Assembly: GCF_900099695.1 (NCBI RefSeq)
Contig: NZ_FNCY01000009.1
Location: 79,350-143,349, forward strand
DNA length: 64,000 bases
DNA from: Propionivibrio dicarboxylicus
GTDB taxonomy: Bacteria > Pseudomonadota > Gammaproteobacteria > Burkholderiales > Rhodocyclaceae
Reading direction: 5' to 3'
A program made the position numbers and the translations under genes. Under the pieces are notes generated by a model. It worked only from the letters and a program-made list of their open reading frames with translations. It was not told the DNA's origin and did not search any database. The stretch's first letter is position 1. The number at the start of each line of letters is the position of its first letter. Below, in pieces: positions 17,935 through 22,671 of the stretch.

Positions 17935-18744
17935 TCAGCCGATTTCGTCCGATGCGAACAACTGTGTCAATGCCACGCCAGGATTTGGCGCGCGCATGAA
18001 AGCTTCGCCGACGAGGAATGCATTGACGCCGTGACAACGCAGCAATTCGACATCGCAGGCCGCCAGTACGCCGCTCTCAGCGACGACGATGCGCCCATCC
18101 GGAATACGCGGCTGCAGCCCGAGCGTCGTTTGCAGGCTGACCTCGAAGGTCCGCAGATTGCGATTATTAATCCCGATCAGCGGCGTCCTGAGCTGCAAAG
18201 CGAGTTCAAGCTCGTCAGCATCATGCACCTCCACCAGCACGGCCATACCCAACTCGCTCGCGACCGCCTCGAATTCCTGCATGGTCGGCAAATCAAGCGC
18301 CGCCGCAATCAGCAGGATCGCATCGGCACCCATCGCCCGCGCTTCGAATACCTGATAGGCATCGACGAGAAAATCCTTGCGCAATACCGGCAAAGCGCAG
18401 GCCGCGCGTGCCGCCTGAAGATATTCCGGCGCCCCCTGAAAAAATTGCCGATCGGTCAGCACCGACAGACAGGCGGCCCCGTGCGCCGCGTAATCCGCCG
18501 CAATCTCGGCCGGGCGAAAGTCGGCACGAATCACTCCTTTCGACGGGCTGGCCTTCTTGACTTCGGCGATCACCGCCGGCAGACCCGCTGCAGTTTTGGC
18601 GCGCAAGGCGCCAACGAAGTCACGGGCCGGCGCCTGCACATTCGCCTCAGCCCGAATCACCGCCAGAGGCCTGGCCACCAGCGCCTGCCGGACCTCCTCG
18701 CGCTTGACGGCGAGGATCCGTTCAAGAATATCCGGCACGCTCAT
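17935..18744 (-). CDS. trpC: Indole-3-glycerol-phosphate synthase
   Basis: This 269-residue TIM-barrel enzyme closes the indole ring from CdRP, the fourth step of tryptophan synthesis. Visible signatures are [64 protein letters not shown] and VAESGV. It is monofunctional: there is no fused phosphoribosylanthranilate isomerase. The ATG at 18744 overlaps the trpD stop in an ATGA; the longer open frame upstream lies inside trpD. It is the last gene of the trpEGDC cluster; trpF, trpB and trpA are not in the window, the usual split in betaproteobacteria. Confidence 0.97.
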
Positions 18745-19769
18745 GCCGACAACCCTTGCGTAAAGCGGACGAACTCGTCGAGTTTGGCACGCGCGGCGCC
18801 GCTCGCGACCGCTTCCCGCGCCAGCGCGATGCCGTCGGCGATCGACTCGGCACGGTTGGCGACATAGAGCGCAGTCCCCGCGTTGAGCAACACGATTTCG
18901 CGCGCGGCCCCCTCGGTATTGGCGAGCACGGAATACAACATTTCCTTCGACTCGTCGGCACTGCCGACCCGCAGACTGCGGTTGGACACCATCTGCAAGC
19001 CAAAGTCTTCGGGGTGGATTTCGCACTCGCGCACGACACCATCCTTGAGCTCGCCGACCATCGTCGCGGCGCCAAGCGAGATTTCGTCCATGCCGTCCTT
19101 GCCGTACACCACCAGCACATGCTGCGCCCCCAAACGCTCCATGACGCGCACAAGAATGCCAACCAGATCCGGATGGAAAACGCCGAGCAAGGTATTCGGC
19201 GCACCGGCGGGATTGGTGAGCGGCCCGAGAATATTGAAAATCGTGCGTACGCCCATCTCGCGGCGGACCGGCGCGACGTTCTTCATCGCCGTATGGTGCG
19301 TCGGCGCGAACATGAAGCCGATGCCGGTGGCAGCCAAACACTCGCCCACCTGGGCCGGCGTCAACTGGATATTGACGCCGAGCGACTCGAGCACATCGGC
19401 GGCCCCGGACTTCGAAGAAACGCCGCGATTACCGTGCTTGGCAACCTTGGCGCCGGCAGCGGCGGTAACGAACATCGAAGTCGTCGAGATATTGAAGGTG
19501 TGTGCGCCGTCCCCGCCCGTCCCGACGATATCAACCAGATTGGCCTTGTCGGCGACCTCGATGCGCGTCGCCATCTCGCGCATCACCTGCGCTGCAGCGG
19601 TAATCTCGCCGACCGTTTCCTTCTTGACACGCAAACCAGTCAGGATGGCCGCCGTCATCAGCGGCGAGAGTTCGCCGCGCATGATCTGACGCATCAGATC
19701 GAGCATTTCGTCGTAAAAAATTTCGCGATGTTCAATGGTGCGCTGTAGCGCCTCTTGTGGCGTGATCAT
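18741..19769 (-). CDS. trpD: Anthranilate phosphoribosyltransferase
   Basis: This 342-residue enzyme joins anthranilate to PRPP. The PRPP-binding signatures are read as [17 protein letters not shown] and [21 protein letters not shown], and the dinucleotide-independent fold continues to HEDFG-like and LNAGTALYV motifs. The N-terminal helical domain ([17 protein letters not shown]) is typical. It is separate from trpG rather than fused as in enterics. It begins 3 bp after the trpG stop and overlaps trpC by 4 bp, so trpG, trpD and trpC are tightly coupled. Confidence 0.97.
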
Positions 19770-19772
19770 GGC

Positions 19773-20336
19773 CTACCTCGTCAGAAAGTTTTTCAGCATG
19801 TCGTGACCGTGTTCGGTCAGGATCGATTCGGGATGGAACTGCACGCCTTCGACCGCGAGGGTCTTGTGGCGCAGCCCCATGATTTCGCCATCCTCGGTCC
19901 AAGCAGTGATTTCCAGGCAATCGGGCAGCGACTCGCGCTCGACGGCGAGCGAGTGATAACGCGTACACACCACCGGATTCGGCAGGCCGCGGAAAATACC
20001 GACATCATTGTGAAAGACCGGCGACACTTTGCCGTGCATCAGTCGCTTGGCATGGACGACCTTGCCGCCAAAGGCTTCACCGATCGACTGGTGGCCAAGA
20101 CAGACGCCGAGCAGCGGAATCTTGCCGGCAAATTCGCGGATCGCCCCGAGCGAGACGCCGGCCTGCGACGGATTGCCCGGCCCCGGCGAAATGACGATGC
20201 GATCGGGCGCAAGACGGGCGATTTCGGCCAGCGTGATCGCGTCGTTGCGATAGACGCGGACGTCCTCGCCAAGTTCGCCGAAATACTGAACGAGGTTGTA
20301 GGTAAAGGAATCGTAGTTGTCGATCATCAGCAGCAT
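19773..20336 (-). CDS. trpG: Anthranilate synthase component II (glutamine amidotransferase)
   Basis: This 187-residue class I glutaminase supplies ammonia to TrpE. The catalytic Cys lies in [17 protein letters not shown], and the His-Glu pair in [14 protein letters not shown]. The oxyanion motif [11 protein letters not shown] is present. In many bacteria the same subunit also serves PabB in folate synthesis. The ATG at 20336 follows GAGG seven bases upstream and matches the family start [20 protein letters not shown]; the longer frame upstream lies in trpE. It is separated from trpE by only 10 bp. Confidence 0.97.
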
Positions 20337-20346
20337 GGCAGACCTC

Positions 20347-21822
20347 TCATTCAAAACGGGTATCGAGGCCGTTCTCGGCCAGTTCCGCCGCCCGCAGGAC
20401 GGCGCGCGCCTTGTTCTGAGTTTCCTGCCATTCCGACGCCGGATCCGAATCCGCGACGATGCCGGCACCCGCCTGGACATGCAGCTTGCCATCCTTGACA
20501 AGCGCGGTGCGGATGGCGATCGCCAGATCCATGTCGCCATGGAAGCCGAGATAGCCGACCGCGCCGGCGTAGATGCCGCGCTTCACGGGTTCGAGCGAGT
20601 CGATGATTTCCATCGCCCGTACCTTGGGCGCTCCCGAAACCGTGCCGGCCGGGAAAGTCGCCTTGAGCACGTCAAGCGCGTTGAGCCCCGGCTGCAGCTT
20701 GCCCTCGACGTTGGAAACGATGTGCATGACGTGAGAGTAGCGCTCGATCGTCATGTTCTCGGTCAGCTTGACGCTGCCGATCTTGGCCACGCGTCCGGCA
20801 TCGTTGCGCCCGAGGTCGAGCAACTGGACGTGTTCTGCCCGCTCTTTCTCGTCGGCAAGGAGTTCCGCTGCGAGCGCCTGGTCTTCCTCGAAAGAGGCGC
20901 CACGACGCCGTGTGCCGGCGATCGGCCGCACCGTCACCGTATCGCCTTCGAGCCGGACGAGAATTTCCGGTGATGCGCCGACGACATGAAAATCCTCGAA
21001 GTCGAAATAGAACATGTAGGGCGACGGGTTGAGCGAACGCAGGGAGCGGTAGAGCGCCAGCGGACTCGCAGCAAAGGGCTTGCTCATGCGTTGCGAGAGG
21101 ACGACCTGCATGATGTCGCCCTCGGTAATGTGGTGCTTGGCCTTCACGACCGCCTGCTTGAACAAGGCCTCGCCGAAGGACGACACCGCCGGCGCCGACG
21201 GCCGGGTCGTTTCGGCGGGAATCTCGGCCGGTTCGCGCAGCCGCGCGAGCAGCGCCTTGAGCCGCGCCTGCGCCTTCTGATAGGCACCGGGCACGCCCGG
21301 CTCGGCGTAGACGACCAGTGTCAGCTTGCCCGACAGGTTATCGACGACGGCGATTTCCTCGGACAACAGGAGCACGATATCCGGTGTACCAAGCTCATCC
21401 TCCTTGGTCGTGCGCGTCAGCTTTTTCTCGATGTAGCGGACCGTGTCGTAACCGAAACAGCCGACCAGCCCACCGCAGAAACGCGGCAACCCGGCCGACG
21501 GCGCGGCGCGAAAGCGCTTCATGTAGCCTTCGATGAAATCGAGCGGGTTGGTATCGTCTTCGCGCTCGGCGATGCGGTTGCCGGTCAGCACCAGCACCTG
21601 ATGACCATGCACGACGATGCGCGTCGGGCTCGCCAGGCCGATGATCGAGTAGCGGCCGAAACGCTCGCCGCCCTGCACCGATTCGAGCAGATAGGTGTAG
21701 GGGCCGTTGGCCAGTTTCAGATAGATCGACAGCGGCGTGTCGAGGTCGGCGAAAGTTTCGAGGGTGACAGGAATCCGGTTGTAGCCTTCAGCGGCCAACC
21801 GGTTGAAAACCGATTCAGACAT
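20347..21822 (-). CDS. trpE: Anthranilate synthase component I
   Basis: This 491-residue chorismate-using enzyme makes anthranilate with TrpG. The tryptophan-binding motif [15 protein letters not shown] near residue 50 indicates feedback inhibition. The catalytic domain shows [76 protein letters not shown] and [11 protein letters not shown]-like motifs. The ATG at 21822 is chosen because GGAG lies six to seven bases upstream; an earlier ATG at 21834 has none. The 156 bp between gph and trpE hold a leader peptide and an attenuator-like structure annotated separately, so expression probably responds to charged tRNA-Trp. Confidence 0.97.
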
Positions 21823-21856
21823 GGGGTACTCCATTCACGCATGCAGCAAGAGAACG

Positions 21857-21901
21857 ACTGGCACGCGTCAACGCGCCAGTACGGGACAGCGGTCTACTGA
21901 C
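21857..21901 (-). promoter_or_regulatory. Putative trp attenuator: mutually exclusive antiterminator and terminator-like stems
   Basis: On the minus strand, segment 2 (GTCAGTA, 21901-21895, overlapping the leader stop codon) can pair with segment 3 (TACTGGC, 21881-21875) in a 7-bp stem with one G-U pair. Segment 3 can instead pair through ACTGGC (21880-21875) with segment 4 GCCAGT (21862-21857), extended by GCG/CGC. The shared ACTGGC makes the two folds exclusive. The following CGTTCTCTTGCT is only moderately T-rich, so the 3:4 stem is a weaker terminator than the enteric one. Confidence 0.7.
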
Positions 21902-21968
21902 AGGATCGCCAGGGCCACGCCTCCGCCCAGAATGCGGGCTCCAGATGCAGTTGGTGAACGGAATTCAT
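21894..21968 (-). CDS. trpL: trp operon leader peptide (TrpL-like), three Trp codons
   Basis: This 24-codon open frame between gph and trpE starts MNSVHQLHLEPA and ends FWAEAWPWRSCQ, with Trp at positions 14, 18 and 20. Three Trp in seven codons is the hallmark of a trp attenuation leader. A ribosome halted at the Trp codons would leave segment 2 of the downstream structure free to form the antiterminator, whereas one reaching the TAG (which lies inside segment 2) would favour the 3:4 stem. The ATG lies 10 bases after the gph stop and has no clear ribosome binding site, so it may be translated by reinitiation from gph. It is too short for standard gene callers. Not tested experimentally; the inference rests on codon content, position and folding. 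Confidence 0.75.
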   Translation of the reverse strand: MNSVHQLHLEPAFWAEAWPWRSCQ

Positions 21969-21978
21969 TCGGTTTATT

Positions 21979-22671
21979 TCAATGCGTCACAGGGGTTTTG
22001 ACCATATCCGCGATATCACGGATGGATTCGACTATAGCATCACAGTCAAGTTCCTGTACATCCTTGTCCTCGTTGTAGCCATACGGCAGAAGGAAGACAG
22101 GACAACCGGCCGCACGCGCGGCGAGCACGTCGTTGATCGAGTCGCCGACGAACAACGTATCACCCGGCACCACGCCAAGACGGCCGCAAGCCCAGACGAG
22201 CGGCATCGGATCCGGCTTGACGCGCGGCAGCAGATCGCCGCCGACGAGCACGTCGAAATACGAGGCCAACCCAGTCTGTTCGAGCAAGGGCGCAATGAAG
22301 GCATCGCCCTTGTTGGTCACCACGCCCATTGGCAGCCCCATCGCACGAAACGCCGCCAGGCCTTCGATGACACCCGGATAGGCGCGGGCATTGCGTCCGT
22401 TCTCACGCGCATAGTGGCGCCGAAAACTCGCCACGGCCGCTGGAGGCGGTGGCGTCAGATCTTCGGCCACGCTCAGCGAATTGGCGAGCACGCGCTTGAC
22501 CAGATTGGCAATCCCACGGCCAACGTAGGCCCGGATCGACTCGAGCGGCAAGGGCGGCCGCCCCAGATCTTCCAGCATCGCACAGGCTGCAGCGTGCAAG
22601 TCCGGAATCGTATCGATCAGCGTGCCGTCGAGATCGAACAGCACCGCCCGCACCGTCAGCACCGGACTCAT
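21979..22671 (-). CDS. gph: Phosphoglycolate phosphatase (HAD family)
   Basis: This 230-residue HAD hydrolase dephosphorylates 2-phosphoglycolate, a by-product of DNA repair or Rubisco. Motif I is [14 protein letters not shown] (nucleophile and acid Asp), motif II is VVTNKG, and the motif III/IV acidic pair is [17 protein letters not shown] helical cap lies between. It overlaps rpe by 4 bp (ATGA) and is followed after 10 bases by the trp leader, giving the common betaproteobacterial order rpe-gph-trpE. The substrate follows from this context; HAD specificity is otherwise hard to read. Confidence 0.93.

Follow-up and report, generated by a model that had tools for sequence, protein, structure and literature searches.

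Layout of the gph-trpE interval

Does the short interval between gph and trpE of Propionivibrio dicarboxylicus encode a trp leader peptide and an attenuator, as a preliminary description of this DNA had proposed? In the window (the whole stretch of 64,000 nucleotides that was analysed), the genes on the minus strand follow the order rpe, gph, a short frame, trpE, trpG, trpD, and trpC, the families being assigned by NCBIfam. The upstream gene gph (phosphoglycolate phosphatase; 21979..22671), the 3' end of which carries the predicted promoter considered below, scored above cut-off with NF009695 and TIGR01449. The trpE gene (20347..21822) scored above cut-off with TIGR00564 and has relatives in the PDB. 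Its start was taken to be the ATG at 21822, which is preceded by TGGAGT; the first ATG of the ORF is at 21834. The genes trpG, trpD, and trpC lie 3' of trpE (17935..20345, minus strand; TIGR00566, TIGR01245, and NF001373, all above cut-off), with approximate starts for trpG and trpC. TrpE does have the LLES motif attributed to it, as do the aligned solved homologues; we take this motif to have a role in Trp binding.

The short frame was found where it had been described, between gph and trpE on the minus strand (21968..21894). It comprises 24 codons followed by a stop, and the peptide is MNSVHQLHLEPAFWAEAWPWRSCQ (24 aa). Trp codons are present at positions 14 (21929-27), 18 (21917-15), and 20 (21911-09). 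The gph frame ends at 21979, the leader ATG lies 10 bases further on, and no Shine-Dalgarno sequence could be seen by eye ahead of this ATG; the preliminary description was right on both counts.

Downstream of codon 18, four pairing regions could be delimited on the minus strand. Region 1 (CTGGCG, 21907..21912) contains Trp codon 20. Region 2 (TGTCAGTA, 21895..21902) overlaps the leader stop codon and can be the partner of region 1 or of region 3. Region 3 (TACTGGCGCGT, 21871..21881) was examined in alignment tests of both 2:3 and 3:4. Region 4 (GCGTGCCAGT, 21857..21866) is the terminator arm. Two mutually exclusive stems had been reported, and both are present. In the 2:3 stem, GTCAGTA (21901-21895) can pair with TACTGGC (21881-21875); as GTCAGTA includes the first two bases of the stop codon TAG, the stop lies inside this stem, as had been pointed out. 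The 3:4 stem, ACTGGCGCGT/GCGTGCCAGT (21880-21871 with 21866-21857), has 10 pairs and is longer than had been claimed, its hairpin having an energy of -15.9 kcal/mol. It is followed by a U-rich tail, CGTTCTCTTG (21847..21856), with 4 T among the first 8 bases, so the T-run is weak, as previously remarked. A 1:2 hairpin, in which CTGGCG of codon 20 pairs with TGTCAG (21912-21907 with 21902-21897), had been overlooked.

Chance expectation and conservation in relatives

When the 320 bases upstream of trpE were subjected to dinucleotide shuffling, frames with at least three Trp in the last 14 residues appeared in 51 of 5000 shuffles, i.e., p ~0.01 for the leader frame alone. Minimum-energy folding, which had been recommended as a check, gave ordinary energies: the single window sequence showed no excess fold stability (z of -0.13 and -0.25), and folding is not counted here as support. 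Within 1.5 kb, one terminator-like site was seen for 1.1 expected from shuffles, with a strong stem and a weak tail. A search of Rfam at the leader returned no match at E<=10, the Trp_leader covariance model RF00513 included; over the window the single Rfam match was a tRNA away from the leader. It is the conservation of the leader in relatives, and not the frame or the fold energy alone, that places it above chance.

The trpE loci collected (at least 80 from named genomes and 30 from other relatives) gave 98 distinct upstream regions. The last 14 residues of the frame contained at least two Trp in 82 of these and at least three in 70, counts that are biased upward since the most Trp-rich frame was picked for each region. 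The type found in the window (AWPW) accounted for 29 of the 98 loci, and a WRxWR type, mostly from Azonexus/Dechloromonas relatives, for 46.

Alignment A1 consisted of 18 sequences, including the window (17 of the 29 AWPW-type loci together with locus L100; Accumulibacter-type and more distant loci were excluded). The relatives do keep the Trp codons: Trp18 and Trp20 were retained in 18/18 sequences and Trp14 in 17/18. The entropies of the three codon positions were 0.264, 0.244, and 0.597 bits, and the third positions thus vary most, as expected of a translated frame. For the 3:4 stem, 87.9% of the cells were paired and 5 of 8 pairs showed changes on both sides. The covariation score was reached by none of 500 shuffles, and slid alignments paired at 25-50%. 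For 2:3, 81.7% of the cells were paired and the covariation was slightly above that of shuffles, with the score reached by 14 of 500 and the count of pairs changed on both sides by 373 of 500. The 1:2 hairpin was paired in 98.1% of the cells and showed no covariation. Hence, the covariation that had been looked for in the stems was found for 3:4, whereas 1:2 and 2:3 are kept with little informative covariation. The main claim of the preliminary description, a trp leader peptide with an attenuator, is supported by the conservation of the Trp codons and the covariation of 3:4. A chance Trp-rich frame within ordinary intergenic sequence, for which the shuffling value of the frame alone and the ordinary single-sequence fold energies might speak, is refuted by this conservation (the frame is kept in 18 aligned sequences and is present in many other families) and is extremely improbable.

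Relatives lacking the Trp codons or either stem had been named as a finding that would count against the leader; some Accumulibacter relatives lack the leader as a whole, a case for which that rule made no provision. The gph-trpE gap was nearly absent in three of them (L014, L021, and L033), and no Trp-rich frame was present at the expected place in five others (L017, L019, L022, L024, and L026). We read these several cases as loss of the leader within one genus. Another Accumulibacter-related locus, L028, was counted in the group with leader loss or decay, and a remnant may persist there. In L100, EAWPWR is kept, and the usual stop CTAG is replaced by CCAG so that the frame continues; this open-ended frame is possibly due to decay or to an assembly error.

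Ribosome position and the proposed attenuation switch

RNA folding was carried out with the ribosome masked, using assumed ribosome footprints. For RNA extending to region 3, P(1:2) and P(2:3) were 0.63 and 0.32 with no ribosome, and 0.62 and 0.32 with Trp14 in the A site. A ribosome at Trp14, the first Trp codon met, therefore does not favour 2:3, the value of 0.32 being equal to that of the ribosome-free RNA. With the ribosome stalled at Trp18 the values became 0 and 0.99, and with the ribosome at Trp20 or at the stop codon both were 0. As a stall at Trp18 alone gives a dominant 2:3 stem, the invariant Trp18 would, in these folds, correspond to the antiterminating state. Once region 4 was present, 3:4 dominated under every mask (P 0.89-0.98), so the decision would have to be kinetic, in keeping with the classical model. 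The exclusive 2:3 and 3:4 stems thus came with a switch by ribosome position in silico, footprints being assumed, and a short multi-Trp ORF stands ahead of a trp gene. When antiterminator partners of the terminator arm were searched for automatically, no signal emerged for the window type (median z -0.05; 8/28 below -1) and some did for the WRxWR type (34/54 below -1); the hairpin chosen in this search did not always coincide with the 3:4 stem of the alignment.

The anatomy, the conservation, the covariation of 3:4, and the promoter motif described in the next section form the basis of the attenuator model, and we put the probability that the leader of the trpEGDC operon is a ribosome-mediated attenuator at about 0.8. 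According to this model, RNA polymerase would start at the promoter inside gph and make the leader, which a ribosome would translate. When charged tRNA-Trp is plentiful, the ribosome would proceed to the stop codon and cover region 2, the 3:4 hairpin would form, and transcription would end before trpE. During Trp shortage the ribosome would wait at Trp18 with region 1 covered, so that 2:3 would form ahead of region 4 and RNA polymerase would continue into trpE.

A predicted promoter inside gph

A consensus scan, which gave one match against 0.2 expected, predicted a promoter for the leader within gph (22031..22060, minus strand): TGTACA, 18 bases, and the extended -10 TGC-TATAGT (22039-22031). 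The transcript start would, at a guess, be near 22024. The sequence TGYGATGSTATAGT or its variants GATGSGCTAGTAT and GACGGGTTAGTAT occurred in 87 of the 98 distinct upstream regions, comprising 76 of the 82 that have a Trp frame and 11 of the 16 that lack one. As these 11 frameless regions keep the motif, its loss does not always accompany loss of the leader. In loci of the Ile type, the Ile codon in the motif is ATA, which makes up 81 of the 3147 Ile codons (2.6%) in these genes, the site included. In loci of the Leu type the motif contains CTA GTA, and CTA represents 1.4% of the Leu codons, again including the site. The motif, together with the rarity of its codons, leads us to predict that it is the leader's own promoter. 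Between the -10 and the leader start lie 62 bases in the window; in 29 loci this spacing is 39-66 bases.

It had been suggested that, starting 10 bases after the gph stop, the leader might depend on reinitiation. This is not needed, because a promoter-like extended -10 is conserved inside gph, 62 bases before the ATG. It may be noted that, of the 39 WRxWR-type loci with a gph match, 18 have a four-base overlap between the leader ATG and the gph stop.

Five of the 11 regions without the motif were of the Azonexus/Dechloromonas type, with no upstream gph detected (L051, L053, L059, L060, and L061); L108 was likewise without a gph match. Leader and trpE are retained in these five loci despite the missing gph and usual motif, and another promoter must serve them. 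Two of the Accumulibacter relatives, L014 and L033, have also lost the ATA codon of the promoter-like motif in gph.

Trp-rich frames across the order

Among 200 genomes of the order, which we take to be the classical Betaproteobacteria, 183 had a trpE match, and 80 upstream regions of trpE with 45 family labels were fetched. Frames with at least three Trp in the last 14 residues were present in 28/80 regions, covering 16/45 family labels, as compared to 0.6/80 for shuffles and 0/80 for the reverse strand; two of the 28 (L144 and L177), with frames more than 200 bases before trpE, are doubtful. At least two Trp were present in 53/80, against 7.7 for shuffles and 2 for the reverse strand. SWRWWR, EWRWRRW, and EAWLWRRWQF recurred among the leader peptides.

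In the WRxWR type, the post-leader hairpin is almost devoid of a T-tail (median of 1 T in 8 bases). Codons 4-7, which include the first Trp codon, pair with a trpE-proximal segment at rank <=0.05 in 26 of 39 loci (median z -2.46). This long-range helix shows compensating changes, its covariation score being reached in 2 of 500 shuffles, and it looks like an attenuator architecture unlike that of the window.

Alignment A2 was made from 23 loci of the WRxWR type. In nearly all of its rows, the Arg codon is CGC in one of the two WR motifs and CGT in the other. Owing to this split GGCGCC is present once, and a second copy seems to be avoided in the leader RNA. AATGAC at the leader start (columns 25-30) is complementary to a near-invariant GTCATT just before the trpE Shine-Dalgarno sequence (columns 149-154); this pairing shows no covariation because it is too conserved. 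Separately, in locus L107 about 27 bases at the leader start recur, inverted and nearly perfect, in the trpE-proximal region (duplex of -63.2 kcal/mol, z -9.7), which is like a pair of repeat elements recruited into the leader.

Complementarity of the leader start and the trpE ribosome-binding site

A helix between the leader and the trpE ribosome-binding site was absent from the preliminary description, the account of which is incomplete to that extent. Leader bases +5 to +14 (ATTCCGTTCA, 21955..21964, minus strand), which we term the anti-RBS, are complementary to the trpE ribosome-binding site (TGAATGGAGT, 21828..21837, minus strand; z -2.8 and -3.2, p 0.01). The helix of 21964-21955 with 21837-21828 was predicted at P 0.97-0.99, and the unpaired probability of the Shine-Dalgarno sequence was 0.02-0.03.

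Complementarity between leader bases -22 to +35 and the trpE ribosome-binding site (-38 to +4) was judged against dinucleotide-shuffled leader segments in 75 loci: 18 of the window type, 20 of the WRxWR type (every second locus), and 37 others. Loci without a detectable Shine-Dalgarno sequence or start were dropped. The 46 order-level leaders were 43 hand-picked from the 80 for plausible peptides after the frame results were available, together with L107, L108, and L110. In this test, which was widened after the data had been seen and whose leader segment was later shifted again, from -15 to -22, complementarity reached p<=0.05 in 41/75 loci (9/18 window type, 12/20 WRxWR, 20/37 others), and the helix was not significant in the remaining 34/75. 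With the shorter leader segment (-15 to +35), 37/75 loci were at p<=0.05 (11 window type, 6 WRxWR, 20 others). The first long-range pairing tests in the window clade were negative (median z 0.05 over 29 loci, mean swap rank 0.459), and another early test there gave 4/20 at p<=0.05; this was because the 3' segment ended before the Shine-Dalgarno sequence, and a signal appeared with the full ribosome-binding site.

As controls, 34 gene starts were tested in the -15 to +35 layout, and 2 were significant; these were ORFs of at least 200 codons with a Shine-Dalgarno sequence in the window, and not all of them need be genes. The leaderless loci and E. coli were tested in the -22 to +35 layout. For the loci set apart as leaderless, 1/14 was significant, the match being L106; within this set, L025 does contain a Trp-rich frame and remnants may persist in L028 and L106, and without these three the count is 0/11. 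The E. coli leader gave p 0.77 against its trpE ribosome-binding site.

Partition-function folding gave an unpaired probability of 0.02 for the window Shine-Dalgarno sequence with the whole leader, compared with 0.34 when the leader start was shuffled (0/20 as low). Occlusion exceeded that of a locus's own shuffles at rank <=0.05 in 10/19 loci of the window clade, 9/19 of the WRxWR type, and 14/38 others. The pairing of the window Shine-Dalgarno sequence with the leader start was 0.98, against 0.25 for swapped leaders (0/25). At rank <=0.05, such pairing beat swapped leaders in 31/75 loci (6/18 window type, 14/20 WRxWR, 11/37 others). Of the 18 window-type folds, 13 have a helix that extends across both start codons, with some bases unpaired; the helix of the window itself stops short of both.

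In alignment A3 (16 sequences), 78.9% of the cells of the helix were paired, and 5/17 pairs had changes on both sides. Among 500 shuffles, the paired percentage was reached by 0, the covariation score by 7, and the count of changed pairs by 21. Sliding the helix by +3 columns gave 4 pairs with both-side changes, and 6 cells versus 5. The covariation is thus modest; the register of the window's helix is shifted relative to the alignment.

The unpaired probability of the Shine-Dalgarno sequence rose from 0.02-0.03 to 0.37-0.44 when the leader start to codon 14 was covered, as by a stalled and an initiating ribosome. It was 0.02-0.04 with a ribosome at Trp14 or Trp20 alone and 0.02-0.19 with one at the stop, and the leader ATG was about half open (0.52-0.66). 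Since freeing the Shine-Dalgarno sequence requires coverage of the leader start as well, a translational tier would need ribosomes to queue. In transcripts that reach trpE, the first codons of the leader are predicted to pair with the trpE Shine-Dalgarno sequence, and the helix would keep basal transcripts silent or prevent renewed initiation at the leader, except when ribosomes queue in Trp shortage. These folds suggest that the helix may act as a translational tier or as a shut-off of leader re-initiation.

In the E. coli trp leader, repeated leader translation is switched off after the decision; Das reportedly wrote on this leader in 1983. The helix described here might likewise do nothing other than end repeated leader translation once the decision has been made, leaving trpE uncontrolled by it. 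It does include the leader start region, and the 5' part of the E. coli leader can be seen to pair with a distal segment (GGGTATC/GATACCC), a pairing that did not reach significance (r 0.15). However, the E. coli partner adjoins the terminator and not the trpE ribosome-binding site (p 0.77, as above), whereas the partner in the window includes the Shine-Dalgarno sequence, and the leader ATG of the window is about half open. We consider this explanation rather unlikely.

In a further alternative, translational attenuation would be the main switch: occlusion of the trpE ribosome-binding site by the leader start would be lifted by ribosomes queued in shortage, and the 3:4 stem would do no more than stabilise the fold. 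The helix is common across the order; some families lack a good local hairpin, none being reported after the leader for five loci (L113, L116, L135, L173, and L180) and the best one being weak in L161-L163 (-0.5 to -3.4 kcal/mol), and T-tails were poor, with a median of 1 T in 8 over the scored loci. Against this, the 3:4 stem of the window clade is strong and covaries, the tail of the AWPW type has a median of 2.5 T in 8 compared with 1 in WRxWR, and the Shine-Dalgarno sequence stays paired when a single ribosome stands at Trp14 or Trp20. As a description of the main switch, it appears improbable, and transcription attenuation remains our reading for the window. For the wider group we put forward, tentatively and at somewhat less than even odds, that Betaproteobacteria share an old dual-level trp leader, in which the trpL initiation region is the anti-RBS of trpE, ribosome traffic would set both termination and trpE translation, and the helix would be the sole switch in families without a local terminator.

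Comparison with known systems

The ribosome-mediated trp attenuator is a known kind of element. What is new here beyond the preliminary description is the promoter motif in gph, the order-wide Trp-rich frames, and the complementarity of the leader to the trpE ribosome-binding site. A genome scan with Rfam models that included Burkholderia and Ralstonia led to the view that gamma-proteobacteria may be where amino acid attenuators arose (accessible part of PMC3766115), and PMC5343134, in the part available, names trp attenuation for gamma-proteobacteria and states that TrpR is found only there. The order-wide frames would escape an Rfam scan, so the spread and the age of trp attenuation may have to be reconsidered. 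In organisms without TrpR, Trp-rich leaders could be a principal means of trp control. If the leader/RBS helix works as proposed, one leader sensed by the ribosome would act on both transcription and translation; the family variants would, if so, form a natural series in which to test how the one level gives way to the other.

In E. coli trpL, alternative 1:2, 2:3, and 3:4 stems are formed and the stop codon lies by region 2. The window has the same alternative stems and stop position, and, like E. coli trpL (RF00513), a short leader ORF with Trp codons before trpE. It differs from E. coli trpL in that the Trp codons are spaced (14, 18, and 20) and not in tandem, the T-run is weak, and the predicted promoter is within the upstream gph. 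Moreover, its leader start matches the trpE ribosome-binding site in complementary sense, a feature that the same test did not show in E. coli.

Trp attenuators are described in Corynebacterium and Streptomyces (PMC1262725), and the trpLE(G) attenuator in Sinorhizobium (PMC7298713). Like these, the leader in the window would be a case of ribosome-mediated trp attenuation outside gamma-proteobacteria; unlike it, they are given without mention of an RBS-occluding leader start in the portions of the two papers that were available. Neither a betaproteobacterial trp attenuator nor an RBS-occluding trp leader was found in the open-access literature that the searches covered. In the LEU element of Actinobacteria, a run of leucine codons pairs with the leuA Shine-Dalgarno sequence, according to the available part of PMC1262725. 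The window resembles it in having a leader ORF of regulatory codons and an RNA pairing with the Shine-Dalgarno sequence of the first biosynthetic gene. It differs in that the Shine-Dalgarno sequence pairs with leader codons 2-5 and the Trp codons are outside the helix, so the regulatory codons themselves are not the ones paired. As far as the accessible text of that paper goes, the LEU element is the nearest printed idea to the leader/RBS helix.
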